64,000 nt of DNA from Syncephalis fuscata. Its lineage: Eukaryota > Zoopagomycota > Zoopagomycetes > Zoopagales > Piptocephalidaceae. Position numbers and translations under genes: made by a program. Below, in pieces: positions 6,401-49,595 of this stretch. Numbering within the stretch: the stretch's first letter is position 1; every line of letters starts with the position of its first letter. The stretch is taken from positions 496,001 through 560,000 of the forward strand of contig JAHLTZ010000010.1 of NCBI GenBank assembly GCA_025786725.1. Direction: 5' to 3'. The notes under the pieces are model-generated. The model had not been told where the DNA came from, did no database searches, and saw only the letters and a list, made by a program, of their open reading frames with translations.

Positions 6401-6525
6401 GGATTCGAGTTCACCGTGCTTAGTTATACAGATTGGTATGATTTATAGAACAATGATTTTTGCATAAACTGTTAGTCAAAAATGCAATTTAGGTATAATT
6501 AGTTAACAAATATTTAACTTATATG
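3410..6525. repeat. IR1 left arm (~3.1 kb inverted repeat)
   Basis: Read as reverse complement this arm matches 6662-9784 almost base for base, with scattered single-base differences and a few 1-3 base indels. The outer edge is sharp: the match begins at 3410 (pairs with 9784) and fails at 3409. The inner edge is 6525 (pairs with 6662). It contains one complete CAP gene plus ~1.9 kb of non-coding DNA and the (TA)n tract near 3676-3697. Confidence 0.95.
4138..4623 (-). CDS. Secreted CAP/SCP (PR-1-like) protein, IR1 left copy
   Basis: Intronless, 161 aa, identical in protein sequence to the copy at 8567-9052. A signal peptide (MQFLTTLIMITAFAASAIEV) precedes a compact CAP domain. Landmarks in order: the N-terminal helix with CLVNKFRAEKKLPPL, the His of MSHSFAGEPG, the Glu-Asn of VSENVASG, W-x-x-SPLH with the second conserved His, and a C-terminal YWTQDFG. 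The usual CAP cavity His/Glu residues are therefore kept. Family members are secreted and bind sterols or lipids, often at host or prey interfaces; the ligand here is unknown. A TATAAATA (minus strand) at 4791-4798 lies ~170 bp upstream. Confidence 0.92.
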   Translation of the reverse strand: MQFLTTLIMITAFAASAIEVSAGPVSFDPTKMICLVNKFRAEKKLPPLAIDTGLNKAAQDHSVLQARNNQMSHSFAGEPGLMQRCSASGGGWNSVSENVASGQTSIEQVMNSWIASPLHLKNLVSDATHFGSGMALGNGGQTYWTQDFGRNDKLPKSFPKC

Positions 6526-6661
6526 TATATATATGGCATAAATATTTACATTATATTGGTATTTCTTCATACTAAATTGCTATCATGTTTGTTTTAGCGC
6601 TGCAAAATGCTTTGGCTTTATTATAAACTAAACTAATTATCAATATTACAATTTCTAAAAT
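4624..6661. other. Non-coding inner part of IR1 left arm and the 136-bp spacer
   Basis: Apart from the CAP promoter region, no supportable gene was found here. The ORFs present are short and are mirrored in the other arm simply because the DNA is duplicated. The unique spacer between the arms is 6526-6661 and is AT-rich. Confidence 0.6.
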
Positions 6662-9600
6662 CATATAAGTTAAATATTTGTTAACTAATTATACCTAAAT
6701 TGCATTTTTGACTAACAGTTTATGCAAAAATCATTGTTCTATAAATCATACCAATCTGTATAACTAAGCACGGTGAACTCGAATCCGGCAATCATTTTGC
6801 TGTACTTTGTTTATACGAGCCATAATTGGCAAAAAACTGCTATTTTTACACATCTATTAGTGTATTAGCACAATAATTGCATTGATACGCAATACAATTA
6901 TGATATAATTTGACAATAGGCGTGTGAATATTATGCACATATTTGTGCAAAATATCATGCATTTTGCTTCATTTTACATACTTTATACATAGTATTATCA
7001 GCGCTTTATTAGTCAAATTTACTATTGCTTTTTAATTCACACTCCATTGGATTCTACCGCCTAATTGCACTAGAATTGCTATTTTAAGCTGGCCATGGTA
7101 ATGGAAATAGAAATATTAAAATTTTATGACGAGCACAGCTACTAGAAATAGCAAATATTACATTTTTATAATGATCATATGCAATGGCAATAACGAATAA
7201 TGCTGTTGTACAATATTTATGACTATTGTTTGGGACTGGGAATCTACAGCTGAATGCGCTACTAATATGTTTGTTTATAGTCGAATAACACCAATCTGGC
7301 CACCGACCGCCAAGAGCTGTTTGATATCAGTAATGAGCACAAGGTGTGATTAGAACATTGGCAGTGCAATATTAAGTATAGATACTTCTGTGACAAGTGC
7401 ACACTAGTCGAATTCCATGGCGGCACCATCGGTGATAGATTCAAGGCCACCTTTTCTGCATTACTGTCGGTAACAACAAGCAAACTCTTTTTGTTAATTC
7501 TCTAGCGCAAGTATTAATAAACACCATTTATTTTTACTACTTGTGTTTAGATATTGTTTATGTCTACAATATGATAAATTATACAATATGGTTTTATCAG
7601 CAGACGAATTGCAAACGAAAGCCAAAACATTAACACGCTTTTCTAATGCAACATATAGAATTGTCATAATGCAACGAATGAATCTATTGCAATCAGTAGT
7701 TGTATCGTGTTTACATTGCACGTGAAACCCGGTATTTATAACAATACCAGTTTATTAATATAATTGTTGGTTTATTGGCCACTACAACGCCTTGAACCAA
7801 TATATACATGATAAAGATAGCCGTATTTAAATCCATAGCATCTAGCTATGACAATACTGTGTTGGGTATAACCGGAATACTTTCACGGGTCTTGGCCTTA
7901 GCACTAGTTTAATGAAACCAATATATTATAGTTAGTAAATATGACAAGACATGATGCTTCAAACCAGTACTGCGGAGGTTGGGTCACAACTTTGATGCAA
8001 TAAAAAAGATGCAAACTTGTATTGTGTAATAATATAAAACATGCAGTGTGTTATAATTAGTAAAGTTGACTTTGTAATATAGCACATTAAATGGCGTGCT
8101 ATCATATTTTTTGACAAAAAATCACTAGTTGCAAGAATAAACATTAAAATAGGCTACAAACATGATTAGCACATTGTGCCAATACAATGTGCAAAAAGTA
8201 CGATTTGGTAAAAATGGGATGACTGGCTGGTTGCTTGAAACGTTGATGTCAGAACCATTAAGGGCAGCCATGTTTTAGCACGGGTGCTTGGAGATGTTGT
8301 TTATTACGCCACCCGGGACCTAAACAGTGAAAACACTCTTGATCATGGTTACAATCATGGAACACATAGTAGCTGTTACTACAAAATTGGATATAAATAC
8401 ATGGCGATTTATTTGGTTAATAGTTGGTTCAGCATCTCAACAAAGCAACAGCTTCTGCAACGACTTTACGCCAGCACCTTTACGCCATTGATTACAACTA
8501 GGCTGCTAAATTGACTAAACGCACTAGCTGTTACGCACGACTTTTAAGCTTACGAACATTATCATCATGCAATTCCTCACTACTCTTATTATGATTACCG
8601 CATTCGCCGCCAGCGCGATTGAAGTAAGCGCTGGCCCAGTTAGCTTCGATCCAACAAAAATGATTTGCCTGGTCAACAAATTCCGCGCTGAAAAAAAGCT
8701 TCCACCACTTGCAATTGATACCGGCCTGAACAAAGCTGCACAGGACCATAGTGTACTTCAGGCCCGTAATAATCAGATGAGCCATTCGTTTGCTGGTGAG
8801 CCTGGTTTAATGCAGCGCTGCTCTGCCAGTGGCGGCGGATGGAACAGTGTAAGCGAGAACGTCGCAAGCGGACAGACATCTATAGAGCAAGTCATGAACA
8901 GCTGGATTGCCTCGCCTCTTCATCTCAAGAATCTAGTAAGCGATGCCACGCATTTCGGCAGCGGTATGGCTTTAGGCAATGGCGGTCAAACCTACTGGAC
9001 ACAAGACTTTGGCCGTAACGATAAATTACCAAAAAGCTTTCCAAAGTGCTAAACAAGCAACGACTTACAACTAAATAAAATAGTGAACAGCACCAGAATT
9101 AAATTAGCATTAAAAGTGCTAAACAATAATAAAACTCGTTTAATTACAGTCCAAAGTTTTTAGTTTACTGATTTGTTTTGTAGTATCATGGCAGGTTAGG
9201 CGATTATGTTTTAAAATACAGTCATTGTTAGTGTTGATACAATCAAATGGCCTAGTACGTTTTTAGAAAATTTATTGTTAAGATTAGTTATCAGTATTAG
9301 CGTAAAATCAATTATTTGCTTGTCTAATGAATCTGACATGCTGTAAGCATTTGGTTTAGACAAGTATTTAAAACCATCATAAATTTAATAACTCTGTATT
9401 CGACTCATTACCTTTTAGTAATTAAAATCAATTTAGAATAGCAATTGGTTATCATTTATAAATAGGTATCGCAAGTAATTAATAATAGTAGCGATATATA
9501 TATATATATATATATAGACTTGGCCATTTAATGTAGATACTAATAATGCCGCAAAATAGAATTTATTAAAATATATGCAACTATGTTGTAAATAGTAATA

Positions 9601-9784
9601 CAAATAGATTAGCGTTACACCTCTGATTTTAAAGGCTTTAGCCTAGATGTTCAAGCACAAATTATACTGATATTATCCTATTATTATTAATGTGAAATAA
9701 AGCAAGTTAGATATTAGTGCGATAACAATAATAGAATAAATAAATAGCTAAATAAACAGCTGACACCATTGTCAAAACAATATT
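6662..9784. repeat. IR1 right arm (~3.1 kb inverted repeat)
   Basis: This is the reverse complement of 3410-6525 with few differences, for example near 7765 and at the pair 5320/7875. The arms are separated by only 136 bp, so IR1 is a quasi-palindrome of about 6.4 kb. It carries the second CAP gene. Confidence 0.95.
8567..9052 (+). CDS. Secreted CAP/SCP (PR-1-like) protein, IR1 right copy
   Basis: 161 aa, same protein as the gene at 4138-4623 (signal peptide, His of MSHSF, Glu of SEN, SPLH, YWTQDFG). Because the two copies sit head to head in the IR arms, each has the same upstream ~1.9 kb, including a TATAAATA at 8392-8399. Both copies look intact, so gene dosage is doubled. The identity of the two reading frames implies very recent duplication, or gene conversion between arms. 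Confidence 0.92.
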   Translation: MQFLTTLIMITAFAASAIEVSAGPVSFDPTKMICLVNKFRAEKKLPPLAIDTGLNKAAQDHSVLQARNNQMSHSFAGEPGLMQRCSASGGGWNSVSENVASGQTSIEQVMNSWIASPLHLKNLVSDATHFGSGMALGNGGQTYWTQDFGRNDKLPKSFPKC

Positions 9785-19856: not shown

Positions 19857-21030
19857 ATGTTAACCAATCAACAAAAGATTGCCTTTCATCGCGAAGGCTA
19901 TCTTACACTGAACTCAGGTAGATATCCTGTCTTGCTTAAGTGTTGGAGAGTAACGTTAGTTTTTCAGTTTTAGAAGATAAACAGCTGCGAGTATTTAGGT
20001 GCGACTGCGAAGAATGGCTAGAACGGCTTGAAAGTTTAGATATTCTAGCCAATACAGGCTGCGTTATTGGTAAGTAGCACTGCAATATATATATATATAT
20101 ATATATATGAATTGAGTTATGGAACTAACACTTAATAGAACCGATGTTGAATAGTCAAATAGAATTGACTATGCCTTCTTGTCGATGGAATACTAGTGAC
20201 TACCAATGTGCTCGTTGGAACACACGACCAATTGCTGGCCAGGTGCTACTTAATCTACTACCAAATATCGTAGCCGATTTGTTGCCATCGCCGGAAACAT
20301 TATGTTTGGTAGGTAACCAATAGAGTGTTATTGTGTATTTGTTTTAATCGTTTATATGTGTGCAGTACAATGAACAATATATTGTTAAACCACCCTGTAC
20401 TTCTTATGGTTCTACATTTGTATGGCATCAGGTAAATAAGTGGTTTAAATTGATAAAATAATTAAATGGTAGTGTTAGGATAGTGAATATTTACACGATA
20501 CAGCCCGCCGTATTCCAACTATTGCATGTTGGATTCCGTTGGACGATGTAGATCAAGTAAGTGTTTATTGAATAAATAATAGTAGACTTATACTATTTAT
20601 AAAGACCAATGGAACGGTACAAATAGAACCGTATCCTAAAATGTCGGATGAGCATAGCAGCGATTTGCAGCTATCCAATTTGCGAAATATACAGCATTAT
20701 ATTACATGGCATAATAGACAGTCTAGTATGTATGCCACATGTAACGTATATCCTACTCCTGGCATGACCAACAATTCAACAATCACCGTGTCGTTACCAG
20801 CTGGTTCCATTCTCCTAATGTCAGATCGAGTGCGTCACTGTAGCCAAGGAAATGCCAGCCAACGGACACGTCGCGTATTTATGGCACAATATTCATCTGG
20901 TATTGTGCCAGCTGAACATACAAATAATAACAATAATAGTAATAATACTGGTATTGATAATAGCATCAATACTGAACCAATTGCACTTGCCGTTCCAGTC
21001 GAGTTGAGTCAAAGTGAGCAATTTTGTTAA
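19857..21030 (+). CDS. PhyH-family Fe(II)/2-oxoglutarate dioxygenase
   Basis: Six exons: 19857-19917, 19968-20069, 20139-20308, 20366-20431, 20479-20556, 20605-21030. The protein opens FHREGYLTLNSVLEDKQLRV, the typical PhyH N-terminus. The metal-binding HxD is WHQDSEY (split by an intron), followed by IACWIPLDDVDQTNGTVQIE and the distal motif VRHCSQGNASQRTRRVFMAQ, which provides the second His and the 2-oxoglutarate-binding Arg. Family members hydroxylate lipids or small metabolites; the substrate is unknown. The C-terminal tail is Asn-rich. IR2 begins inside its last exon (20731), so the last ~300 bp also exist as a truncated inverted copy at 46833-47132. Confidence 0.88.
20084..20108. repeat. 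(TA)n microsatellite in a PhyH intron
   Basis: A pure TA dinucleotide run inside the second intron of the oxygenase gene, between the GTAAGT donor at 20070 and the TAG at 20136-20138. Confidence 0.85.
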
Positions 21031-21212
21031 AATACGAATAAATTGTGCTCGTTGAGCGTTTTTTGTTTTGTTTGTGACATTTTCGCGTTTTATTGTTTGC
21101 TTTATCTTTACATTACAACACCGCGTCTACCACGACAGTTACTGCCAATAGTATTCACCATGTCGGCCCAACTCGAACAACAACAACAACACCAGCAAGA
21201 TGCCGATTTGGT

Positions 21213-22585
<1,373 letters not shown>

Positions 22586-23368
22586 GATTTACATTTATAC
22601 TTGAGAATAAATTGTAGATTTATATAAACTGTTAAAAATAATGTAGATTCAAATGACTAGCCAAAAGTGCATGGACATTGATAGACAAGGTATGGTTAAT
22701 AGAGTGTAGAATAATATAAAAATGAGTAAAAGAGAATGTATGAACAATACCGGTGAAGATATAGTGTGTATGGCTGAGTGAGTATAATGGGCTAAAAGCA
22801 TAAAAATACAATTGGCAATAAACAAACAATCTTTATTAATAGCATGTATTTAGTAAACTATAGAACTATATACATTGTAATGGATATGAATGGAAATGAT
22901 ATGGATAGATAGAGTATCTATATAAACAGGATATGTGTGTACAATAAATCTATTATAATAAAAATCTACAATATTTTGTAAGCATGTTGACTTATTTAGT
23001 ATCAATAGAGCATATTGTACAGGCCTGCTGTTAATACATTTGCCTGATTAATGTTTACTAGTCATTGGATATCAATCAAGTATGGCCATATACATAAGCT
23101 CAATTATATAATTAAAACAAAGTAACGTGTTTACTACTACAAGTTGTATGATTGAATATGCACAGCCAAATGCAGACTTGTTGGTAACATAGTAACGCCA
23201 TTGGTTAAAATCTGAATAATTCGGAGTATTGGCTAGAGGCTGGCATGTACATGGCCCGGACGGCTGCTGCCAAATAATCTTAATTTCTGTTGAATATATA
23301 CCTAGAATATATGGGACTAGCAGTCCAGCTATACAACCGGTACCAATGTCTTGAAGACGCCGGTTAAC
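22586..23368. other. Convergent 3' flanks of RAD51 and the microexon gene
   Basis: About 780 bp of non-coding DNA between two genes ending towards each other. It holds an AATAAA-type signal near 22610 and no supportable ORF. The same sequence occurs inverted at 44496-45276. Confidence 0.55.
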
Positions 23369-26300
23369 TTATGCTTGTAAATATATACAACACATGTCTT
23401 ATGATTAACTTATAGAGCAATAGTATACAATGTAACTTACGGACTATTGATACAGATTATAAGCACACATAACACGTAGTGTGTTTTAATACACAGCCAA
23501 TTAATATACAATGTCACTTGCTTGCTATTGACAGTTATTACGCACACATGACATGGTATATGATTAGTGTATAATTAATTGCTATACATTGCACTTACAA
23601 ACTGTTAACAAATGTTATTAAACGTGTAATGTATGGCATATTTTAGTACATAGACAGTCGATATACAATGTCACTTACGATCTATTATTACAAGTTGTTA
23701 AATACATAGTGCATAACTGATTGGTATAAAATGCCACTTACAGCCTATTAACAAAAATTGTAAAACATACAACATATGTCATATGTTTATTATAGCTTAT
23801 TGATGTATCGTGTCACTTACGATCTATTAGCACAAATTATTTAACAAACGGCGTACAACATATATTTAGTAAATGGGTTTTTAATAGATGGTGTCACTTA
23901 TTCCTAATAATACAAATTATTAAACAAACATTATATGGCATATGTCTAGCATATGGTTGTTTAATACATAATGCTACTTACCCCCTATTAACATAAATGA
24001 TAAACACGCAGTACATGGCACGTGTTTAATGCATGGCTGCTTGATATGCAATGCTACTTACGCTCTATTGATGCATATAATTAGACATATAATGCATAAA
24101 ATATGTTTAAAGCACATTCAATACTATACAATGTCACTTACTTTCTATTAAAACAAGTTATTAAACGCACAAAATATGACATATATTTAGTGCATGGCTG
24201 ACAATGTACAATTCCATTTACCATCTATTAGAAATGCCATTGAATGCATAGTTTAGAGTTTGTCTAATACGTAGCTGGAAATATGCGGTGTAACTTACTA
24301 ACTATTAATACAAGTTATTGGATACATAGTTATGGCATATGTTTAACGTATAGCTGATCAAAGTGTAATGCTACTTACCAAATATCATGATACCTTATTA
24401 AGCGCAAAGTGCACAATATATTTTAGTACATAGTTAGTTGATAGGCACTATTGCTTACCAACTATTAGCACAGTTCGTTAAACATGCAGTACAAGTTAAG
24501 TATTTAGCGTATAGATGATTAATGCACAATGCCACTTACAACCTATTAATACAAGTTATTGAACAAATCGTGCACAGTATATGTTTAGTGCATAACTAGT
24601 TGATGCGCAATGCTACTTACTCAACATTGAGAAAGCTTATTAAGCGCAAAGTAGCAGTACTTTTTAGTACATAGTTGGCTGATAGGCAATATTACTTACA
24701 AACTATCAACACAATTCGTTAAACAGGCAGTATGAGTTAAATGGTTAGTATATAGCCTATTGTTATACAATGCCACTTACTAACTATTAATATGGTTTGT
24801 TGAAAACAAAATACATGGCATGTATTTAGTGCTTAGCTGATTGGCATCCAATGGCACTTACGTACTATTGGTGCAGGCTATTAAACATACAATGAATAGT
24901 ATATACTTAGTGTATAGCCTATTGGTATACAGTGCCACTTACTACCTATTAACACAAGTTATTGGACAAGCGGTATATAGCATATGTTTAGTAAATGGTT
25001 TTTAATTGGCAATGTCACTTACTTCCTAATAATACGAATTATTAAACAAACGATATATGACATATGTTTACTGCCTAGATAATTACTATACTATACCACC
25101 TACCACCTAATAACAATTCACCAGATACCCAGAACACAGCATATGTTTAACACATAGCTGATTGTTATGCAATGGCACTTACAGCTATTAACAATTATAA
25201 AATACACGATATGTTTACGCATAGCTGTTCTATGGATATCACTTACTAACTATTATTACAAGTGATTAAACGCACAATGCATGGCATATGTTTAGTGCAT
25301 AGCTGACTGATATGCAATGTCACTTACGAACTATTAATATAGATTATTAAGCGTAAAGTATATATATCGTGTGTTTAATACATAACTGAGTAATATATAA
25401 TTTTACTTACCAGCTATTAGCACAAGTTATTAAACAGACAGTATACGATCTATGTTTAGTGCACAGCTGATTGGTATGCATTGCCACTTACTAACTATTA
25501 ACAAATGCCATTAAACATGCAATGTATGGCACATGCTTAATGTATAGCTAATCAATTCACAATGTCACTTACGATCTATTAGTACAAGTTGTTAAGCGCA
25601 TAGTGCACCGTATATGTTTAATGTATATCTGACTGTTATAAAATGCCACTTACGACCTATTAACAAAAGTTGTTAAGCATACAGCGCATGGCATGTATTT
25701 ATTATATATATTATTAATGTATCATGCCACTTACTATCTATTAGCACAAATTAGTAGACAAGCGGTGTATAATGTATGTTTAGCAAATGGGGTTTTAATA
25801 TACAATGCTACTTACTAACTATTAACACATGCCATCAGACAAACGGTATATGGCATATATTTAGTGCATAGACGAATGATACGCAACACTACTTACTTTC
25901 TATTGGAACAAGTTAAGTACAAAGTTCATGAGAATATTTAGTGCACAATCAATCGGTAGACAATCCAACCTACCTTCTATTAGCAGCCATTTAGTGTGCA
26001 ATACACAGTATCTATTAGTGCATAGCCGATTGATATACAGTTTCACTTGCCAACTATCAACATAAGTTGTTAAACACAAAGTGTATGGTATATGTTTAGC
26101 ACATAGCCAATTGACATGCAATGGCACTTACCTTCTGTTAACGCAAATAATTTAACACGCAGTGCATAGCATATGTTAATGCATACCCAACTACTATACA
26201 ATGCCACCTACGCTCTATTATAAAACGTTGTTAAGCATACAGCGCATGATAATATTTAGTGCATATCTAATCGATTTACAATGCCGCTTACTTTCTATTA

Positions 26301-27104
26301 GCAAGTTTATTAGGCACACGGTACATAGTTTATGTTTAGTACATAGTTGCTTAATAAGTAATGCCACTTACCAACTATTAACATAAAATGTTAAAAATGC
26401 AATGCATGGTACATGTTTAGTGCATAGCTGGTTGCTATACAATGCTACTTACGGTCTATTAATACAAGTTAATAAAAAGACAGTGCATAGTTTATTGCGA
26501 TCAATACCACTTACTTTCTATTAACAAAGATTTATTAAGCACACGGTACACGGGCTATATTTAGTGCATAGTTGATTGATATGTAACGTCACTTACTAAC
26601 TATCAACATAAGTTGTTAAAATATAGCACATAACATATGTTTAGGGCATAGATAATTGGTATACAGTGTCACTTACGACCTGTCAATATCAGTTAAACAT
26701 GCAGTGCATAAATATGCTTAATACATAGTTAATTAATGAACAATGTTACTTACGCTCTATTAATGTGAATCCAACATGTTAGCATTATCAATGTGGTATT
26801 TGATTTAGTATTTTATGTTAGACTTACCTTGCATTAATAACTCTAATTCGATTTAATTAGCAAATGATTTTATTGTGTTTAACGCACATGATAAAGTATG
26901 TTAAGTGCTGTGGCAGTGGCCCTTAAGCACAACTTACCGACTACTGTTACCATGGTCGGTTATATGTTAATAAAGTATTAATTTGTCTATTTATTGTAAT
27001 CACAACATACCAACATGAGCTGCGGCTGGCATAGCGTCCACCATGACTGTACTGGCTACAAAAGCCACAAGAAGGGTGCAGACAGTGGCAATAGAAAGCT
27101 TCAT
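23369..27104 (-). CDS. Microexon-array secreted/membrane protein, IR2 left copy
   Basis: Minus-strand copy of the gene at 40752-44495. Exon 1 (27104 down to ~27011) encodes the same signal peptide. On the plus strand each unit shows ACTTAC-NNN-CTATTA, the reverse complement of TAATAG-NNN-GTAAGT. I read all 45 microexons in this arm and they match the right arm, including the three 15-nt ones, with two exceptions. Microexon 23 (near 25192) has two bases instead of three, amid several one-base deletions clustered at ~25190-25250. Microexon 44 (near 23530) has a GCAAGT donor where the right copy has GTAAGT. The cluster looks like local consensus error; if real, this copy is frameshifted before its transmembrane segment. 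The stop codon is at 23369-23371. It converges on RAD51. Confidence 0.72.
23440..26935 (-). repeat. Tandem array of ~45 homologous introns, left copy
   Basis: About 43 diverged units of ~81 bp, each an intron plus a 3-nt exon, read on the minus strand. The conserved landmarks per unit on the plus strand are a 3' ACTTAC donor complement, a central GGCATATGTTTAGTGCATAG-type stretch, and CTATTA at the acceptor. The sequence between landmarks is clearly homologous between units but variable; the triplet itself is not conserved. Confidence 0.9.
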
Positions 27105-28320
27105 GTTGATGTTGATTTGCTAAAACAGACAAACAAAATGAGCAATATAGTGTGGCTGATATAGAGTGAATGGCAGCGAATACTTGGCAGAAAGTAGATT
27201 GTAATGATGATACTATTAATTAGCCCTATGTATTTTGTAATCTATTTAAACACTTGGCTAGTCTGAGATACTAGTATTCTATGCTTATGGACTATCCTAT
27301 TGGGGTGCAATGTAACTAATAAAACATCCCACATGTGACTTAACGCACGCTTATACCAATACGTAGATGGTATGACAATGTACAGCCAGGCCTTACCGCA
27401 ACCCGTTTGGAATTTATGCAAATGATGTAGTGATGTCAATGGTCCAGTGCACATGCAGTTAAAATTTATATGCCTGTCTGTATTGCATTTCTGTACAATT
27501 CACCTATACAACGTAAACTAGTTTATTGATTTTACCGAAGCAACGATAATGCATTTCTGTGTCTTTGCTATTGCTTTCGCCAATAACTTCAACGCTCAAA
27601 TTCAGCATGCATTTCAAACAGCGCTTAGACACAGATGCAACAGCAGCATTAGCACACTGAATTTGTATTCCTTTAAAGACATAGACTATCGTGCATAAGC
27701 TGACTAGAATTTCTTAAATTATTAAAATACACTGATTGGTTCACACGCCCATTTAATTTGACACTGCGACTTGACTGCGGAAATGAACAGCTCATTTTAG
27801 CAATGTACTACCAACTGTTGATACTGGCTTGACCGTTAACAATTGCTTACCGACCTTTTGCACAGTAGTATTTTTGATAATAAATATTGAGTCCGAATAT
27901 CAATAGTGTCGATTATTTAAGCATAAAGCAATCTAAAGCCATTATGATGTACTTATTAGATCGTTTAGCCATGTGTGGACGATCTTGAGCTTACAGTAGC
28001 AATGCATGGCATATCAGTTGGTAGCAATTCTGGTTTACAAATGACTCATTCGGCAGTAACAAAAATGGCTTATCACAGATGCACAAATCAAACTGCATTG
28101 GAAAAAGGCCAGAGTCGGGATTTGGCAGTGGTGAATTCCATACAACTCCTCACCAGTCTAAATCAATGGCCACATGTCGTAGCAGCTTCAAGAGTTATAA
28201 TTTTTCATCAAAGCTATCCCTTTTAGCATTCAATATTGCTTTAGCTGTGGACAAGTTATTGCACAATAGAATGTTTTTAATATAAATATACACCTAATTA
28301 CTTTTTGCTTAATAAAACAT
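27105..28320. other. Upstream DNA of the left microexon gene inside IR2
   Basis: About 1.2 kb shared with 39538-40751. Short frames (27242-27454 -, 27549-27698 +, 27975-28226 +) are duplicated only because the arm is duplicated, and none resembles a known protein. It should contain the promoter of the microexon gene; a pyrimidine-TTTTAG-like element just before the ATG could be the acceptor of a 5' UTR intron. Confidence 0.5.
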
Positions 28321-29000
28321 TAATCTTTCCCGTTAATAGTATTCATTAGGTCAGATACCGTACCGATATTGTTAAAGTATTTTAGTTCATATTAGCAGAT
28401 ATAGCTTAAAATAAAAATTTTGTTTCATAGTTTACAGCTACATTTTCAAAACAATGCAAAAATGTTGCTTTTATTATTAAAAAATCAATGACGCATTCAA
28501 AGCACGAATGCTACATCTTCAGTATAAATTGAAACTAGAACTAAAAATAAAACACAGAAACACGCTATTTTATTAAGAAAACCGATACTAAAAAGTAGAG
28601 GCAGAAAGATATAGTAAAAGATAGACAAAAGTTTTATTGATGATAAAAATGCTATATTGCACTAACCATTAATTAATTACTAGCAATTTAATGTGATGCT
28701 ACACGACTATTGCCTTATATGGCACGACAACGTAATCATGCAAATGATTGGCTGTAAAATCCCATAGATGACGCACGCACAGCGTTATTTTTTTACTTTG
28801 ATGCATGTTTTCCATTCTCGCTGTATTTTAGTCTTAAGACTGTCTGAGCACCTGCGTAAATAGTTTATGTTTGTGCATATATGTGCCAAATTGAGGTAAA
28901 CCATTTAAAAAGCAATATTTATCCATAGCTAATGAAGTGTATTAGAATCTTTTATAACATAATTATCATGTAAGTTGCTTATAGAAATTTAGTAATATTT

Positions 29001-38934: not shown

Positions 38935-39537
38935 GAATCATTAACAGTACTAATAAAGGAGAATATGCCTTAATATCGGCAAGTGATTAACCGTTAACGT
39001 GTGTCATAGCAATTAGCATTTAAATGCTACTGAATAATTTTTACTGTAAAATCATTGTAATTAACCAATAGTACCTACTGTAAAAATATCAATGCCATAT
39101 AACAACTTGATGGTCTTTATTTGACAATAATTAGTCTATTCACATATTTTTATGTGCACTTTCATTTAGTCATTTAATCTAAATTTTGCTATTATTATAT
39201 GTGCTGTATCATTTATTAGTAAAAAAGCATATTTATTTCTACGAGTATTAGACAATCTATTAACAAGCTAATATGATTTGGAAATAAAATGGCTAAATTT
39301 AATAACATTCGCGCAATTAAACTAGACATGCGTTCTATTGAAGATAAAACTGAGCGGAGAGAAACATTAATCATCAAAATACTCGTTATTATATACCGAT
39401 TATCATATTATTGTTATGTGTGCACATATTCTCTACACATTCACTTTATTGCTCATTGCATATTCATGATAACACATATATTACATTATAATTAAATTTG
39501 ACTAGCTAATAATAAAATAATACTGGTACAATAATCA
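38935..39537. other. Intergenic DNA between PER1 and IR2 right arm
   Basis: AT-rich, about 600 bp, with only a short unsupported frame (39289-39495 +). It includes the PER1 promoter and ends at the inner edge of the IR2 right arm. Confidence 0.5.
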
Positions 39538-39541
39538 ATGT

Positions 39542-40751
39542 TTATTAAGCAAAAAGTAATTAGGTGTATATTTATATTAAAAACATTCTATTGTGCAATA
39601 ACTTGTCCACAGCTAAAGCAATATTGAATGCTAAAAGGGATAGCTTTGATGAAAAATTATAACTCTTGAAGCTGCTACGACATGTGGCCATTGATTTAGA
39701 CTGGTGAGGAGTTGTATGGAATTCACCACTGCCAAATCCCGACTCTGGCCTTTTTCCAATGCAGTTTGATTTGTGCATCTGTGATAAGCCATTTTTGTTA
39801 CTGCCGAATGAGTCATTTGTAAACCAGAATTGCTACCAACTGATATGCCATGCATTGCTACTGTAAGCTCAAGATCGTCCACACATGGCTAAACGATCTA
39901 ATAAGTACATCATAATGGCTTTAGATTGCTTTATGCTTAAATAATCGACACTATTGATATTCGGACTCAATATTTATTATCAAAAATACTACTGTGCAAA
40001 AGGTCGGTAAGCAATTGTTAACGGTCAAGCCAGTATCAACAGTTGGTAGTACATTGCTAAATGAGCTGTTCATTTCCGCAGTCAAGTCGCAGTGTCAAAT
40101 TAAATGGGCGTGTGAACCAATCAGTGTATTTTAATAATTTAAGAAATTCTAGTCAGCTTATGCACGATAGTCTATGTCTTTAAAGGAATACAAATTCAGT
40201 GTGCTAATGCTGCTGTTGCATCTGTGTCTAAGCGCTGTTTGAAATGCATGCTGAATTTGAGCGTTGAAGTTATTGGCGAAAGCAATAGCAAAGACACAGA
40301 AATGCATTATCGTTGCTTCGGTAAAATCAATAAACTAGTTTACGTTGTATAGGTGAATTGTACAGAAATGCAATACAGACAGGCATATAAATTTTAACTG
40401 CATGTGCACTGGACCATTGACACCACTACATCATTTGCATAAATTCCAAACGGGTTGCGGTAAGGCCTGGCTGTACATTGTCATACCATCTACGTATTGG
40501 TATAAGCGTGCGTTAAGTCACATGTGGGATGTTTTATTAGTTACATTGCACCCCAATAGGATAGTCCATAAGCACAGAATACTAGTATCTCAGACTAGCC
40601 AAGTGTTTAAATAGATTACAAAATACATAGGGCTAATTAATAGTATCATCATTACAATCTACTTTCTGCCAAGTATTCGCTGCCATTCACTCTATATCAG
40701 CCACACTATATTGCTCATTTTGTTTGTCTGTTTTAGCAAATCAACATCAAC
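39542..40751. other. Upstream DNA of the right microexon gene inside IR2
   Basis: About 1.2 kb that mirrors 27105-28320. Open frames here (39631-39882 -, 40402-40614 +) have no recognisable domains. ATCAACATCAACATG immediately precedes the start codon, and a TTTGTCTGTTTTAG just before could be a 5' UTR intron acceptor. Confidence 0.45.
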
Positions 40752-43700
40752 ATGAAGCTTTCTATTGCCACTGTCTGCACCCTTCTTGTGGCTTTTGTAG
40801 CCAGTACAGTCATGGTGGACGCTATGCCAGCCGCAGCTCATGTTGGTATGTTGTGATTACAATAAATAGACAAATTAATACTTTATTAACATATAACCGA
40901 CCATGGTAACAGTAGTCGGTAAGTTGTGCTTAAGGGCCACTGCCACAGCACTTAACATACTTTATCATGTGCGTTAAACACAATAAAATCATTTGCTAAT
41001 TAAATCGAATTAGAGTTATTAATGCAAGGTAAGTCTAACATAAAATACTAAATCAAATACCACATTGATAATGCTAACATGTTGGATTCACATTAATAGA
41101 GCGTAAGTAACATTGTTCATTAATTAACTATGTATTAAGCATATTTATGCACTGCATGTTTAACTGATATTGACAGGTCGTAAGTGACACTGTATACCAA
41201 TTATCTATGCCCTAAACATATGTTATGTGCTATATTTTAACAACTTATGTTGATAGTTAGTAAGTGACGTTACATATCAATCAACTATGCACTAAATATA
41301 GCCCGTGTACCGTGTGCTTAATAAATCTTTGTTAATAGAAAGTAAGTGGTATTGATCGCAATAAACTATGCACTGTCTTTTTATTAACTTGTATTAATAG
41401 ACCGTAAGTAGCATTGTATAGCAACCAGCTATGCACTAAACATGTACCATGCATTGCATTTTTAACATTTTATGTTAATAGTTGGTAAGTGGCATTACTT
41501 ATTAAGCAACTATGTACTAAACATAAACTATGTACCGTGTGCCTAATAAACTTGCTAATAGAAAGTAAGCGGCATTGTAAATCGATTAGATATGCACTAA
41601 ATATTATCATGCGCTGTATGCTTAACAACGTTTTATAATAGAGCGTAGGTGGCATTGTATAGTAGTTGGGTATGCATTAACATATGCTATGCACTGCGTG
41701 TTAAATTATTTGCGTTAACAGAAGGTAAGTGCCATTGCATGTCAATTGGCTATGTGCTAAACATATACCATACACTTTGTGTTTAACAACTTATGTTGAT
41801 AGTTGGCAAGTGAAACTGTATATCAATCGGCTATGCACTAATAGATACTGTGTATTGCACACTAAATGGCTGCTAATAGAAGGTAGGTTGGATTGTCTAC
41901 CGATTGATTGTGCACTAAATATTCTCATAACTTTGTACTTAACTTGTTCCAATAGAAAGTAAGTAGTGTTGCGTATCATTCGTCTATGCACTAAATATAT
42001 GCCATATACCGTTTGTCTGATGGCATGTGTTAATAGTTAGTAAGTAGCATTGTATATTAAAACCCCATTTGCTAAACATACATTATACACCGCTTGTCTA
42101 CTAATTTGTGCTAATAGATAGTAAGTGGCATGATACATTAATAATATATATAATAAATACATGCCATGCGCTGTATGCTTAACAACTTTTGTTAATAGGT
42201 CGTAAGTGGCATTTTATAACAGTCAGATATACATTAAACATATACGGTGCACTATGCGCTTAACAACTTGTACTAATAGATCGTAAGTGACATTGTGAAT
42301 TGATTAGCTATACATTAAGCATGTGCCATACATTGCATGTTTAATGGCATTTGTTAATAGTTAGTAAGTGGCAATGCATACCAATCAGCTGTGCACTAAA
42401 CATAGATCGTATACTGTCTGTTTAATAACTTGTGCTAATAGCTGGTAAGTAAAATTTATATTACTCAGTTATGTATTAAACACACGATATATATACTTTA
42501 CGCTTAATAATCTATATTAATAGTTCGTAAGTGACATTGCATATCAGTCAGCTATGCACTAAACATATGCCATGCATTGTGCGTTTAATCACTTGTAATA
42601 ATAGTTAGTAAGTGATATCTCATAGCAACCAGCTATGCGCTAAACATATGCCGTGTATTTTATAACTTGTGTTAATAGCCTGTAAGTGCCATTGCATAAC
42701 AATCAGCTATGTGTTAAACATATGCTGTGTTCTGGGTATCTGGTGAATTGTTATTAGGTGGTAGGTGGTATAGTATAGTAATTATCTAGGCAGTAAACAT
42801 ATGTCATATATCGTTTGTTTAATAATTCGTATTATTAGGAAGTAAGTGACATTGCCAATTAAAAACCATTTACTAAACATATGCTATATACCGCTTGTCC
42901 AATAACTTGTGTTAATAGGTAGTAAGTGGCACTGTATACCAATAGGCTATACACTAAGTATATACTATTCATTGTATGTTTAATAGCCTGCACCAATAGT
43001 ACGTAAGTGCCATTGGATGCCAATCAGCTAAGCACTAAATACATGCCATGTATTTTGTTTTCAACAAACCATATTAATAGTTAGTAAGTGGCATTGTATA
43101 ACAATAGGCTATATACTAACCATTTAACTCATACTGCCTGTTTAACGAATTGTGTTGATAGTTTGTAAGTAATATTGCCTATCAGCCAACTATGTACTAA
43201 AAAGTACTGCTACTTTGCGCTTAATAAGCTTTCTCAATGTTGAGTAAGTAGCATTGCGCATCAACTAGTTATGCACTAAACATATACTGTGCACGATTTG
43301 TTCAATAACTTGTATTAATAGGTTGTAAGTGGCATTGTGCATTAATCATCTATACGCTAAATACTTAACTTGTACTGCATGTTTAACGAACTGTGCTAAT
43401 AGTTGGTAAGCAATAGTGCCTATCAACTAACTATGTACTAAAATATATTGTGCACTTTGCGCTTAATAAGGTATCATGATATTTGGTAAGTAGCATTACA
43501 CTTTGATCAGCTATACGTTAAACATATGCCATAACTATGTATCCAATAACTTGTATTAATAGTTAGTAAGTTACACCGCATATTTCCAGCTACGTATTAG
43601 ACAAACTCTAAACTATGCATTCAATGGCATTTCTAATAGATGGTAAATGGAATTGTACATTGTCAGCCATGCACTAAATATATGTCATATTTTGTGCGTT

Positions 43701-44495
43701 TAATAACTTGTTTTAATAGAAAGTAAGTGACATTGTATAGTATTGAATGTGCTTTAAACATATTTTATGCATTATATGTCTAATTATATGCATCAATAGA
43801 GCGTAAGTAGCATTGCATATCAAGCAGCCATGCATTAAACACGTGCCATGTACTGCGTGTTTATCATTTATGTTAATAGGGGGTAAGTAGCATTATGTAT
43901 TAAACAACCATATGCTAGACATATGCCATATAATGTTTGTTTAATAATTTGTATTATTAGGAATAAGTGACACCATCTATTAAAAACCCATTTACTAAAT
44001 ATATGTTGTACGCCGTTTGTTAAATAATTTGTGCTAATAGATCGTAAGTGACACGATACATCAATAAGCTATAATAAACATATGACATTGTTGTATGTTT
44101 TACAATTTTTGTTAATAGGCTGTAAGTGGCATTTTATACCAATCAGTTATGCACTATGTATTTAACAACTTGTAATAATAGATCGTAAGTGACATTGTAT
44201 ATCGACTGTCTATGTACTAAAATATGCCATACATTACACGTTTAATAACATTTGTTAACAGTTTGTAAGTGACAATGTATAGCAATTAATTATACACTAA
44301 TCATATACCATGTCATGTGTGCGTAATAACTGTCAATAGCAAGTAAGTGACATTGTATATTAATTGGCTGTGTATTAAAACACACTACGTGTTATGTGTG
44401 CTTATAATCTGTATCAATAGTCCGTAAGTTACATTGTATACTATTGCTCTATAAGTTAATCATAAGACATGTGTTGTATATATTTACAAGCATAA
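40752..44495 (+). CDS. Microexon-array secreted/membrane protein (42 single-codon exons), right copy
   Basis: Exon 1 (40752-40845) encodes a signal peptide, MKLSIATVCTLLVAFVAST, and ends in phase 1 at a GTATGT donor. Then come 45 microexons. Starts: 40916, 41014 (15 nt), 41100, 41177, 41257, 41339, 41401, 41482, 41562, 41642, 41722, 41803, 41880, 41956, 42037, 42118, 42199, 42280, 42361, 42442, 42524, 42605, 42679, 42758, 42839, 42919, 43000, 43081, 43162, 43229 (15 nt), 43322, 43403, 43471 (15 nt), 43563, 43640, 43720, 43800, 43880, 43961, 44041, 44119, 44182, 44262, 44340, 44421; all others are 3 nt. The last exon (44491-44495) gives Pro-stop. The joined frame is open: 89 aa with coiled coil (LKNLEKQVEEINSHL), TM segment (ILISFSMLSFGIMIFV) and basic tail NEKRGNRY. 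Microexon 39 lacks a normal donor and may be skipped. I do not recognise the family. Confidence 0.85.
41103..44490 (+). repeat. Tandem array of homologous ~78-nt introns, right copy
   Basis: Introns are mutually alignable. The 5' part is close to GTAAGTGGCATTGTATA, the middle to CTATGCACTAAACATATGCC, the 3' part to TTTAATAACTTG and then TTAATAG. Most are 77-78 nt (for example 42121-42198, 42202-42279, 42283-42360, 43003-43080); shorter ones are 59-67 nt. Donor variants are GTAGGT (after the exons at 41642, 41880, 42758), GTAAGC (after 41562, 43403), GTAAAT (after 43640) and GCAAGT (after 41803). The triplets between introns are far more variable than their flanks. Confidence 0.93.
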
Positions 44496-45276
44496 GTTAA
44501 CCGGCGTCTTCAAGACATTGGTACCGGTTGTATAGCTGGACTGCTAGTCCCATATATTCTAGGTATATATTCAACAGAAATTAAGATTATTTGGCAGCAG
44601 CCGTCCGGGCCATGTACATGCCAGCCTCTAGCCAATACTCCGAATTATTCAGATTTTAACCAATGGCGTTACTATGTTACCAACAAGTCTGCATTTGGCT
44701 GTGCATATTCAATCATACAACTTGTAGTAGTAAACACGTTACTTTGTTTTAATTATATAATTGAGCTTATGTATATGGCCATACTTGATTGAATCCAATG
44801 ACTAGTAAACATTAATCAGGCAAATGTATTAACAGCAGGCCTGTACAATATGCTCTATTGATACTAAATAAGTCAACATGCTTACAAAATATTGTAGATT
44901 TTTATTATAATAGATTTATTGTACACACATATCCTGTTTATATAGATACTCTATCTATCCATATCATTTCCATTCATATCCATTACAATGTATATAGTTC
45001 TATAGTTTACTAAATACATGCTATTAATAAAGATTGTTTGTTTATTGCCAATTGTATTTTTATGCTTTTAGCCCATTATACTCACTCAGCCATACACACT
45101 ATATCTTCACCGGTATTGTTCATACATTCTCTTTTACTCATTTTTATATTATTCTACACTCTATTAACCATACCTTGTCTATCAATTCCATGCACTTTTG
45201 GCTAGTCATTTGAATCTACATTATTTTTAACAGTTTATATAAATCTACAATTTATTCTCAAGTATAAATGTAAATC
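44496..45276. other. Convergent 3' flanks of microexon gene and RAD51, right arm
   Basis: The same DNA as 22586-23368, inverted. Non-coding; it includes a GC-richer conserved patch right after the stop codon (44500-44640), which is probably 3' UTR. Confidence 0.5.
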
Positions 45277-46650
<1,374 letters not shown>

Positions 46651-46832
46651 ACCAAATCGGCATCTTGCTGGTGTTGTTGTTGTTGTTCGAGTTGGGCCGA
46701 CATGGTGAATACTATTGGCAGTAACTGTCGTGGTAGACGCGGTGTTGTAATGTAAAGATAAAGCAAACAATAAAACGCGAAAATGTCACAAACAAAACAA
46801 AAAACGCTCAACGAGCACAATTTATTCGTATT

Positions 46833-47132
46833 TTAACAAAATTGCTCACTTTGACTCAACTTGACTGGAACGGCAAGTGCAATTGGTTCAGTATTGATGC
46901 TATTATCAATACCAGTATTATTACTATTATTGTTATTATTTGTATGTTCAGCTGGCACAATACCAGATGAATATTGTGCCATAAATACGCGACGTGTCCG
47001 TTGGCTGGCATTTCCTTGGCTACAGTGACGCACTCGATCTGACATTAGGAGAATGGAACCAGCTGGTAACGACACGGTGATTGTTGAATTGTTGGTCATG
47101 CCAGGAGTAGGATATACGTTACATGTGGCATA
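46833..47132 (-). pseudogene. Truncated 3' fragment of the PhyH-type oxygenase
   Basis: The fragment corresponds to the last ~100 codons of the gene at 19857-21030, from YATCNVYPTPGMTNNS to the stop, with one visible substitution near the end (VPVKLSQ instead of VPVELSQ). It is cut exactly at the IR2 outer boundary. Upstream exons, including the HxD metal-binding motif, are absent, so it cannot encode an active enzyme. It marks the breakpoint of the inverted duplication. Confidence 0.9.
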
Positions 47133-48068
47133 TTTTTTTAACAACTTAAATCTATGTTTTCATTTATTTGCTAAATAATATTGTTGATTATCATATACAC
47201 GTGTTACTCTCAAACCAATACTCTATACTGCCAATAGCTTGTCATCATTTGATACAATATTAATGTAGGTTCCAAATAAATGATAATGTCTTATGACGGG
47301 TGCAACAACCATGCTAAATTCATACATACCCTTTTAGGAAACCGTTGAGGATACAAATGAGGGTCAAAAAGGGCAATAGCGGTTAGAAATAAACACTTTA
47401 TATTTGGTTCATTGAATATGTTAATAGCGTTTTAATAAAACTATTTATTTATTTACACAGAATGTTTAATTAATGATGCATAATAATATTTAATGATCAA
47501 AACATAATCACTCATAATAAATAGTCCAAAGACAATTCCAACTTTGACCCTGAAACAAAATAACTTTCAAGGCTGCTGTCGTAGCAATTCTCGACTATTT
47601 GCCCCGTAGACTTGCTACTGCCCGAGTGATTTAAAACCCGGAGTCAATGTTAGAAATATTTCTGCACTGAAAAGGCGAAATAGTTCATGGATCACTACGT
47701 GAAATTTCAAATTTCCCTTTAAGGCTAAGCATTTTAAAACGTTGATGTAACGAAGTACTAACCAATGTTGTTTACTACTCCTAAACCGCAGTAGTATTAA
47801 TTGATAATGCATTCTGCTCTGCCTTCCATACTTCATCGTCTTACCTACTTCTCATTGCTCGTTCACTGCCACTTCCTAGCCATCCTCCTAGCTACACCTA
47901 CTGCTGCTGGATAAAGCTTTTATTCAGCCTTTCGTCGCGGTCCTGTCCCTCTATTGACATCACTATATACATACACCTACACACAGTATTGTGACGCTGG
48001 TCGTTACAATTATTTCAAACCTTTATCACCGCCAATCATTCGATTGAACAAATATTTTAGCAAACAAA
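47133..48068. other. Intergenic DNA right of IR2
   Basis: About 930 bp with no supportable gene. The last 200 bp are more C/T-rich and lie just upstream of the secreted protein gene, so they probably hold its promoter. Confidence 0.5.
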
Positions 48069-49595
48069 ATGAAACACAATTCACTGTTTTTACTCTTGCT
48101 AGCCAGTTCGCTATTGCTGATGCCCTTAAGTGCTGATGCATTCAATCGGCAACGCTTACTTTGCCTAGTAAATAGTCATCGTGAAAAAGCCAAACTGAAA
48201 CCTCTATTGGAAGATAGCGTATTGAATGTTACCGCTGACAAGATATGTGCCACTCGTGCTAAAACTCAATATCAAGACTCGGCAACACCCGATGCATCGC
48301 TGCTAAAGGAGATCAACACGAATGGCTATCGTAAATGGGTTACCGTTGGACAGGCCGTCGTACGGGGTGCAAAAGACGAGGCTGACTGTGTCCAGCAATG
48401 GATGGCCAACGAGACGGACCGTGCCCGTTTCCTTAATCCAAGCTTTACACGATGGGGCGGCAGTGTAGTCTATAACCAAGGTGTCGGCTATTGGACTGCC
48501 ATGCTAGGTGATGATGGGCTGCCTATGCCTACGGATATACAATCCTGTCCAGTAGGTGAAAATGTACCGGTTGAAGGAGAGCCAGGTACTGGTAAAACAA
48601 CAACAGCGCCAGCATCTACCAATTACTCAACGCCCATCTCATTTGAAGTGCCACTAACCAATCAAATGCCTAACGATAAAACGACACCCCTGCCAACATC
48701 AGACGAATATTCAGGATCCAGCCCATCAGGGCAGACAGCCAAGTCACCAGCAAAGCCTGTAGATAACACTTTAACATATACACCTACGCCAGATGTACAG
48801 AAGCCATCTACTACAAAAACGCCACCACAGCCTAATGAGCCAATGATGTCAATATTGCCTATCATGCCTGTAGAGGCACCAACCAACATGCCTTCTGATT
48901 CTTTGGAGAGCGATATTAAAATTACAGTGTCTACCAAAACGTCATCTGGTTATGGTACGGCCGAATCTTCTAATGCACCAGCATCGTCTAATAGCAATTC
49001 GGTCGCATCAGCTAATGGAGAAGTGAATACACCTGCTGATTCTACTTCATACAATGCTGAAACTGTATCAACTGAATCCGCTTATGGATTCCCTTCGTCA
49101 ACTGATGTTGAAACAGATGATGACTCAAATGATGAAAATACTTTTAGCGTTGATACACCTCCATCTAGCTATCCATCGTCATCGGTTAGCGTCAATGGCA
49201 CAAACAGTACACCTAATGGTGGCACAACAAGTGTTGATACGCCAACAGATAGTATTACTACATATGGCTCTACCAAGTCAACAGATAGTCAAGTATCTAC
49301 TACTGAAAATAACGCGACCATACCTGATAAAACGATGGACAAATCACCGTCATCCGGATCTGCTTATGGCAGTAGTAGTGGCAGTGGCTCTTATAAAAAC
49401 ACCAAATCATCAAAAGATAAAAATTCTAAACAAGCGAAGAAACCCAAGGGAAATAAAGGACGCAAGGGACGCAAGAGCCGTAATCGCCATCATAAAGGTT
49501 CAGAAGGCAATCCATCCTCAGGCAACAAGAATAAGAATAAGGACAAAGGTGCTTACAAGGATACATATAGTACAGGCATGGAGCGCGCCTATTGA
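48069..49595 (+). CDS. Secreted CAP-related protein with mucin-like Ser/Thr tail
   Basis: Intronless, 508 aa. A signal peptide (MKHNSLFLLLLASSLLLMPL) precedes a CAP-like domain (RLLCLVNSHREKAKLKPLL, QQWMANETDRARFLNPSF, GGSVVYNQGVGYWTAMLGDD), clearly related in spacing to the IR1 CAP protein. The His of MSHSF, the Glu of SEN and the SPLH His have no counterparts, so the usual CAP cavity residues are lost. Residues ~180-430 are Ser/Thr/Pro-rich and low complexity, likely heavily O-glycosylated. The C-terminus is Lys/Arg/Asn/Ser-rich (KKPKGNKGRKGRKSRNRHHK), which suggests binding to acidic polymers or the cell wall. A possible surface or adhesive role is inference. Confidence 0.85.
   Translation: MKHNSLFLLLLASSLLLMPLSADAFNRQRLLCLVNSHREKAKLKPLLEDSVLNVTADKICATRAKTQYQDSATPDASLLKEINTNGYRKWVTVGQAVVRGAKDEADCVQQWMANETDRARFLNPSFTRWGGSVVYNQGVGYWTAMLGDDGLPMPTDIQSCPVGENVPVEGEPGTGKTTTAPASTNYSTPISFEVPLTNQMPNDKTTPLPTSDEYSGSSPSGQTAKSPAKPVDNTLTYTPTPDVQKPSTTKTPPQPNEPMMSILPIMPVEAPTNMPSDSLESDIKITVSTKTSSGYGTAESSNAPASSNSNSVASANGEVNTPADSTSYNAETVSTESAYGFPSSTDVETDDDSNDENTFSVDTPPSSYPSSSVSVNGTNSTPNGGTTSVDTPTDSITTYGSTKSTDSQVSTTENNATIPDKTMDKSPSSGSAYGSSSGSGSYKNTKSSKDKNSKQAKKPKGNKGRKGRKSRNRHHKGSEGNPSSGNKNKNKDKGAYKDTYSTGMERAY

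Follow-up and report, generated by a model that had tools for sequence, protein, structure and literature searches.

Arrays of predicted single-codon exons in a gene family for putative secreted peptides of the zoopagomycete Syncephalis fuscata

We analyzed a 64,000-nucleotide (nt) stretch of the genome of Syncephalis fuscata (assembly GCA_025786725.1, contig JAHLTZ010000010.1, positions 496,001 to 560,000 of the forward strand; hereafter the window, with position 1 at its first letter), in which a gene at 40752-44495 on the plus strand appears to be cut into exons of a single codon each. S. fuscata is a zoopagomycete, and Syncephalis is described as mycoparasitic in a review (PMC10386755). 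Between exon 1 and the last exon, the gene has 41 intact exons of 3 nt, a further 3-nt unit that is damaged, and three exons of 15 nt; related arrays are found throughout the genome.

Exon layout of the window gene

The exon model of this gene was placed by hand, as the automatic chain models of both window copies were faulty and were replaced; all positions given here are on the plus strand. Exon 1 (40752..40845, 94 nt) encodes MKLSIATVCTLLVAFVASTVMVDAMPAAAHV plus G, has a signal-peptide-like N-terminus, ends in phase 1, and is followed by the donor GTATGTTG. The first 3-nt exon, TCG (40916..40918), and the 15-nt exon AGTTATTAATGCAAG (41014..41028), which keeps the frame, precede a run of 27 exons of 3 nt (41100..43164), each with AG before it and GT after it (GC at 41803); these exons start at 41100, 41177, 41257, 41339, 41401, 41482, 41562, 41642, 41722, 41803, 41880, 41956, 42037, 42118, 42199, 42280, 42361, 42442, 42524, 42605, 42679, 42758, 42839, 42919, 43000, 43081, and 43162. 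The run is followed by the 15-nt exon CTTTCTCAATGTTGA (43229..43243), whose acceptor TTAATAAG lies upstream of the usual position, by two 3-nt exons, GTT at 43322 and TTG at 43403 (43322..43405), and by the 15-nt exon GTATCATGATATTTG (43471..43485), the sister of the exon at 43229 within a 241-bp tandem duplication. Five further 3-nt exons (43563..43882; starts 43563, 43640, 43720, 43800, and 43880) lead to the degenerate unit GAA (43961..43963), in which the acceptor TTATTAG is intact and the donor, having lost its first G, reads TAAGT (TTATTAG|GAA|TAAGT); this unit is probably skipped in splicing. Six more 3-nt exons (44041..44423; starts 44041, 44119, 44182, 44262, 44340, and 44421) precede the last exon, whose coding part begins as CA|TAA (44491..44495); it was placed by hand at ACAAG|CATAA and is followed by the 3' region, which begins CTTCAAGACATTGG.

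A first-pass annotation of this locus had described 42 units of the form TAATAG-NNN-GTAAGT, three 15-nt exons, an exon 1 in phase 1, a stop two bases into the last exon, and a predicted coding sequence (CDS) of 270 nt, or 267 nt with one microexon skipped. All elements of the array are present in the sequence, and the hand-placed model returned the same three 15-nt exons, the same stop, and the same CDS lengths (267 nt without and 270 nt with the 42nd triplet). The unit count held in part: 41 units are clean 3-nt exons and one is degenerate, and the exact motif occurs only 22 times in the array, the remaining units being close variants. When all exons running from YAG to GTA[AG]G in the window were counted, a length of 3 nt was found 41 times on the plus strand and 37 times on the minus strand, while each other length from 0 to 39 nt was found 0-6 times.

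Read in phase 1, the predicted product is open over 88 residues (89 with the damaged unit), MKLSIATVCTLLVAFVASTVMVDAMPAAAHV-VELLMQERLKNLEKQVEEINSHLTVLTCGSILISFSMLSFGIMIFVNEKRDRYLSIP, and includes NLEKQVEEINSHL as a peptide spanning many triplets; the joined middle exons contain three stops in phase 0 and seven in phase 2. The first-pass statement that such an order could not come from random triplets proved too strong for this gene, as 22% of 5,000 exon-order shuffles of the window array were likewise stop-free. For this reason, the open phase 1 is weak evidence for the window array alone, and the case rests on the genome-wide family.

A last acceptor at CATTGGTAG|TGCAATC was dropped, that stretch being 3' untranslated region (UTR) in the intronless paralogs. 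With an alternative last acceptor, GGACTGCTAG|TCCC, the phase-1 frame is open for 81 codons (44548-44790) downstream of the predicted stop; the intronless paralogs suggest that this segment is 3' UTR, and it may otherwise encode a longer C-terminus. Rfam and tRNA scans of the window gave no matches.

Evidence from the genome-wide family

In the 28.95-Mb assembly (299 contigs), TAATAG-N3-GTAAGT occurs 2,716 times (1,235 + 1,481), compared to five occurrences of the reversed control, which bears out the microexon array as a real feature; the motif pair had 0 occurrences in viral contigs. The start of the first intron, with at most three mismatches allowed, gave 110 genome matches and one control match (the adjoining exon 1 was not checked for each), and the exon-1 peptide gave at least 150 matches (150 scored, all matching, of 341 candidates; weakest E 7.5e-8). 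The protein-database relatives of the exon-1 family (E up to 0.001) were from Syncephalis fuscata in 15 of 15 cases. Arrays were located with five triplet-specific patterns, yielding roughly 100 clusters by hand count, and the family probably comprises more than 100 genes for small, putatively secreted peptides in S. fuscata. We read 36 loci around pattern matches in this one species, one of which (L019) is without an array; the locus sample is therefore enriched for arrays.

Exon 1 was recognized 33 times, in the read loci and the two window copies, with Arg-Arg present in 28 of the 33; the script did not find it in L025 (where the locus is cut off), L032, L033, and L034. A GTATGTT-type donor follows exon 1 in 31 cases, and all 31, paralogs included, are in phase 1, as had been proposed for the window gene, with an exon 1 of 94, 97, or 115 nt; no exon-1 donor was found by script in L006 and L012. 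The usual form of exon 1 is MKLSIAVVCTIVVALVASTAMVDAKPALVRR, and its N-terminus, MKLSIAVVCTIVVALVASTAMVDA, is hydrophobic by eye and by hydropathy. In most members, the array begins directly after Arg-Arg, which would be a Kex2-type site.

Splice models were obtained as dynamic-programming chains over donor and acceptor scores, with exons of 1-66 nt allowed. Internal exons measured exactly 3 nt in 840 of 862 cases in 36 arrays (535 of 547 in the first 22 arrays), with 7 to 56 such exons per model, the lowest counts being those of arrays shortened by insertion. The 15-nt exons of the window escaped the chain and were located manually, and where models have introns of double length, as several do, a unit was missed by the chain or is broken. 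Among 703 sampled introns of 66-84 nt, 619 were 76-80 nt long. The splice signals are near-fixed, with GTAAGT at +1 to +6 and TAATAG preceding the exon, and core intron identity was 0.71 within arrays and 0.68 between arrays, compared to 0.58 for shuffled sequences. Analysis of RNA structure in 80 introns gave a mean z of 0.19 and found no consensus fold, and no sequence of the window outside the arrays matched the intron profile with an E value below 0.5. A genome search for U1 returned one gene over the cut-off among 41 scored of 287 candidates, and an unusual spliceosome was rejected, since this U1 gene counts against it; other small nuclear RNAs were not searched. One array intron (L001:5502-5926) carries an insertion of ~420 bp flanked by repeated TAATATTGTATATTA, which the similar array L002 is without. 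The end of this insertion is tRNA-like by eye, resembling a short interspersed element, with no tRNA reported by ARAGORN; sequence of this type also begins in the arrays of L005, L008, L020, L023, and L036.

At the other end of the genes, the script chose a last acceptor close to the conserved 3' motif in 20 of 29 modelled genes, the motif or the acceptor not being found in nine. In 16 of these 20 genes, phase 1 meets a stop after 0-7 codons, and in ten of them after 0 codons; in the same 16, a stop within this range is reached by phase 2 in three and by phase 0 in one. Last exons often start as ACAG|NNTAA, and the stop proposed for the window gene, two bases past the last acceptor, agrees with ten models that have AG|NNTAA-type starts. 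In four genes (L014, L035, WIN_A, and WIN_B), the chosen acceptor was incorrect or doubtful; that of WIN_A was settled by hand. The products are 44-75 amino acids long in the 16 genes whose last exon is settled, and the 3' region is common to split and intronless paralogs.

When exons of the 36 arrays were joined, phase-1 stops were found in 3 of 826 codons, compared to 42.7 ± 5.0 with exon order shuffled within arrays (minimum 28 in 1,000 shuffles); phase-2 stops showed no depletion (60, compared to 56.7 ± 4.5 shuffled). At the junctions of adjacent exons, phase-1 stops occurred in 2 of 796 cases, whereas skipping of one, two, three, or four exons gave 52/749, 39/704, 31/660, and 35/616, respectively (Fisher 1.4e-14 for 2/796 versus 52/749). 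Both adjacent-junction stops are located at double-length "introns" of 157-159 nt, where a unit was probably missed in each case, and the third stop of the 826 therefore lies inside a longer model exon. The unit missed in the window is GTG at 42758, whose inclusion leaves the frame open. Because skipped junctions carry stops and adjacent ones rarely do, these counts indicate that evolution protects the product with every exon included in order, not the products of skipping.

The phase-1 reading is also enriched in Cys, with 108 Cys codons compared to 62.0 ± 5.6 in 1,000 order shuffles (maximum 81), while phase 2 has no excess (21 compared to 23.4). CX3C spacing occurred 14 times in 16 mature peptides, compared to 4.8 ± 2.1 (maximum 13) in 2,000 shuffles. 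Three members, L003, L018, and L029, are without Cys; in the array of L018, GC-rich triplets, GCN among them, are frequent, and Arg, Gly, Asn, and Ala abound in the phase-1 product. The lack of Cys in L018 means that not all family members are Cys-rich.

Divergence was counted in 16 paralog pairs, which share members and are not independent; triplets differed at 227 of 646 positions (35%) and introns and flanks at 2,263 of 23,046 (9.8%), a 3.6-fold difference, with only 2.4% divergence in the acceptor and 1.2% in the donor hexamers. By codon position 1/2/3, divergence in exon 1 was 6.5/2.8/11.5%, a normal pattern, unlike that in the triplets, which was 40.8/32.7/32.1%. The extreme is seen in L021/L022, where exon 1 is identical, introns and flanks are 7% divergent, and triplets are 47% divergent; little triplet change was found in L001/L002 (2/54) and L014/L017 (5/101). 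In size, Cys excess, one-species relatives (15/15), and triplet divergence, the family has the features of small, Cys-rich, lineage-specific, diversifying effectors. Triplets with 0, 1, 2, or 3 differences numbered 44, 38, 35, and 26 in nine pairs, where 26, 60, 46, and 12 are expected under independence; this distribution suggests whole-unit exchange, although the pooling of unequally divergent pairs would also broaden it. Growth of arrays through duplication of several units at once can be seen in the ~313-bp blocks of L014/L017 and the 241-bp block of the window. In L014/L017, the one-codon exons of these higher-order blocks spell WTLWKLW-type repeats, and those of L014 also PAPAPA.

Among 14 further exon-1 loci, eight are intronless, four have an intron donor (two of them, L045 and L047, repeating loci already sampled), and two are without a recognized exon 1. 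In the eight intronless loci, exon 1 continues into an open reading frame (ORF) of 33-56 more residues with Cys, a stop, and a related 3' region, the exception being L042 with 80 residues and no Cys; L038 and L040 have an identical mature peptide. Together with the scarcity of stops at adjacent-exon junctions, these paralogs with the same exon 1 and 3' region support the coding interpretation of the first-pass annotation. Intronless L050 and split L026 are 95% identical in 203 bp of upstream sequence and 94% identical in 809 bp of downstream sequence, which looks like a replacement of the coding middle alone. In L009, which is the best upstream match of L038 among the modelled arrays, 14 consecutive 3-nt exons encode CKCQDEDGNCTSC, where intronless L038/L040 read CKCRDDDGYCTSC; the peptides are identical at 10 of 13 positions, with z of 7.7-7.9 against residue shuffles. 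The modelled product of L035 matched a stop-free frame at C79:328087 (68% over 28 residues, E 0.01), and this match begins 123 bp, in frame, past the start of the exon-1 copy at C79:327964. The other cross-comparisons listed gave z of 3.2 or less.

Explanations for the arrays and the surroundings of the window gene

Altogether, we infer with high confidence that the arrays are constitutively spliced genes, built of single-codon exons, for secreted, fast-evolving, and mostly Cys-rich peptides. Exon 1 would supply the signal peptide, usually ending in the dibasic Arg-Arg; the mature peptide would be spelled by the run of phase-1 3-nt exons, separated by mutually related introns of ~78 nt; and the last exon would contribute the final bases and a stop, followed by the 3' UTR. 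Units would be joined in order by the major spliceosome, normally with none left out, and the near-fixed intronic TAATAG and GTAAGT would substitute for the missing exon sequence. A 3-nt exon is too short for exonic signals, and U1 and U2 complexes hardly fit on both sides of it at once. Intron definition with one-by-one removal would be the simplest mechanism, because the introns are short and uniform and have near-consensus ends. With a codon and an intron as its repeating unit, an array could duplicate units in tandem, lose them, or exchange them, and the peptide would change by whole codons without frameshift. Diversifying selection would then drive the mature part to evolve far faster than the introns or the signal peptide, which is what effectors that target a host fungus should show; the signal-peptide-like exon, the Cys content, and the diversifying pattern would point to secretion, cleavage at Arg-Arg, and action on a host fungus. 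As for the intronless paralogs in the same flanks, their simplest origin would be spliced messenger RNA copied into complementary DNA (cDNA) that replaces the array, and recombination with cDNA best accounts for arrays having been replaced while their flanks stayed the same. More tentatively, the array may be a device for peptide evolution, a tandem repeat with a single amino acid as its monomer. Unequal exchange between arrays would then insert, delete, and shuffle residues of a secreted effector codon by codon without frameshift, splicing would be constitutive, and occasional cDNA write-back would fix intronless effectors; the array would serve as a nursery, with the intronless paralogs as frozen products of it.

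Several observations weigh against the interpretation as spliced coding genes, among them the shared members of the paralog pairs mentioned above. As a member of the family, the window gene is atypical: it is poor in Cys, with one Cys in the part encoded by the array, and has no Arg-Arg. A protein-database search found no homolog of the spliced product (one candidate, none scored), and genome searches found no uninterrupted copy of this product and no uninterrupted match to that of L004. In the second window copy of the gene (copy B, below), the counterpart of exon 42679 is 2 nt (CT) through a one-base deletion, so that copy B is out of frame there. Of the 862 model exons, 22 are not 3 nt, five of these being multiples of three, and the splice scores were trained on 3-nt units, so that other exon types may be under-detected. 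The L035 product model omitted two 10-nt exons and one 56-nt exon and has three double-length introns, and the AlphaFold model of the intronless relatives, which is helical, is poor (pLDDT 66) and was not relied upon. Stops are also few in phase 0 (9/873), which is not testable by exon-order shuffling, and stop avoidance alone therefore cannot separate phase 1 from phase 0; codon preference leaves the phase unsettled as well, with phase 1 at +1.9 and phase 2 at +2.7 standard deviations over shuffles. What sets phase 1 apart from phase 0 is the exon-1 phase, the last exon, and the paralogs.

The homology of introns between arrays, and the flanks common to intronless and split forms, would also fit intron gain, which we regard as rather doubtful: here an intron family would have invaded intronless genes codon by codon, the intronless paralogs being ancestral and the products the same. 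A partly split gene, with few introns and a long ORF, was not noticed among the loci read, in which no systematic search was made, and the all-or-none states fit removal through cDNA better, in a sample that is small and chosen for arrays.

It is improbable that many arrays, the window pair included, are decaying pseudogenes with a relic coding signal. The lost donor of unit 43961, the 2-nt exon of copy B, and the repetitive insertion in some arrays are what decay would produce, but phase-1 stops are nearly absent across the 36 arrays and triplets diverge fast beside splice sites that are 98-99% conserved; most arrays therefore appear to be under selection now or until lately.

Quite improbable, too, is that the arrays are spliced mainly to make many products by exon skipping, as proposed for schistosome micro-exon genes (MEGs), whose variety is attributed mainly to the splicing of their central exons (PMC10526429). 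All 3-nt exons are symmetric (phase 1-1), and each could be omitted without frameshift, but the stops at skipped junctions (52/749, 39/704, 31/660, and 35/616, against 2/796 at adjacent ones) led us to reject alternative skipping as the main function. That the array is a non-coding minisatellite in one large intron, with exon 1 joined to the last exon and the sites serving as decoys or for recursive splicing, is highly improbable: the units are tandem and related (intron identity 0.71/0.68 versus 0.58 shuffled), and the end of exon 1 and, in most cases, the start of the last exon are in phase 1, but neutral triplets would not avoid phase-1 stops between neighbours alone, be Cys-rich with CX3C spacing, or match the peptides of uninterrupted paralogs.

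The window gene lies in copy A (39506..47132, plus strand) of an inverted duplication, which matches copy B (20731..28349, minus strand) at 99.5% over 7,635 aligned positions (20731-28349). Exon 1 of copy B is located at 27011..27104 and its microexon array, up to and including the last exon (23369-23373), at 23369..26955, both on the minus strand, with the end at 26955 approximate. Over 40700-44600, the two copies differ in 26 alignment columns, 21 of which cluster at 42620-42679, and in copy B a difference at 44344 changes a GT donor to GC. The 7.6-kb inverted duplication brackets an 11-kb core with ABC transporter, MBOAT, and Per1 genes, and a nearby Per1 gene shares 77% identity with Syncephalis plumigaleata and S. 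pseudoplumigaleata. Nearby opposite-strand array clusters were also seen elsewhere (C1 475/531 kb and 575/610 kb; C13 609/613 kb; C135 267/298 kb), and from this pairing, arrays may mark or cause inverted duplications. The window further contains a near-perfect palindrome (3410-9784, 98.5% self-inverse) that carries two identical CAP/PR-1-type protein genes, at 4138-4662 (minus strand) and 8528-9052 (plus strand), and a third CAP protein at 48048-49595.

Comparison with known systems

If RNA confirms the splicing, these arrays would represent an extreme of gene splitting and a test of minimal exon size, with an architecture near the physical limit and a prediction that is simple to test. Exons as short as 1-3 nt are described as rare, and here seemingly at least 1,000 are spliced in unbroken runs in one genome. 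As exon definition and exonic enhancers have no room in such runs, the minimal exon need of the spliceosome would be directly testable in one organism. One-codon-exon genes also defeat standard annotation; the deposited model P0127, which is partial, has the same exon 1, and is presumably of the L009 gene, diverges from the array within a few residues of the end of exon 1.

Among the papers listed in searches of the open-licence PMC literature, no report of arrays of single-codon exons or of this family was seen. Introners and tandem intron duplications give rise to many related introns by copying, whereas the S. fuscata copies are stacked one codon apart within one gene family. Many very short predicted internal exons, symmetric and in the same phase, place the family in the micro-exon architecture of the MEG or bicycle type, and the parallels named in the first-pass annotation, schistosome MEGs and aphid bicycle genes, are indeed the closest known designs. 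The exons in both are longer, those of bicycle genes exceeding 3 nt.

Splicing of single exons of 1-3 nt is evidently possible, as described for a 1-nt exon in Arabidopsis APC11 (PMC4674806), a fungal case with a 1-nt exon in Fusarium CYP621A (PMC12940212), and a 3-bp exon in Drosophila homothorax (PMC7392893), with a microexon also described in Trichoderma Xlr2 (PMC11121469); these occur one per gene, not by the dozen in arrays.

Schistosome MEGs encode secreted proteins with an N-terminal signal peptide and a place at the parasite-host interface, both of which are putative features of the S. fuscata family, and they resemble it in their runs of tiny exons, mostly divisible by three, and in fast evolution (PMC10526429; PMC4350168). 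They have 10-20 exons, mostly of 15 bp (6-81 bp; 3-81 in the abstract), introns of 0.1-5 kb, and alternative splicing (PMC10526429). In contrast, nearly all internal exons of the S. fuscata family are 3 nt, with up to 56 per model; its introns are ~78 nt and mutually related, skipping is unprotected, and the organism belongs to a different kingdom. With exon-1 relatives that are all from S. fuscata (15/15) and exons of 3 nt, the family falls outside the schistosome MEG family proper.

Aphid bicycle genes (PMC9168663) share many microexons nearly all in one phase, a putative effector role, and membership in a large, fast-evolving family, and the aphid megacycle has more than 100 microexons (PMC9168663). 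They differ in that their exons are in phase 2, number ~17 per gene, and belong to an animal (PMC9168663), and no sequence link to S. fuscata was seen; the phase-1 exons and the S. fuscata-only database relatives likewise set the family described here apart from the bicycle family proper. After schistosomes and aphids, S. fuscata would thus be a further parasite lineage that splits fast-evolving secreted proteins into micro-exons, and a general reason for this design can therefore be sought.

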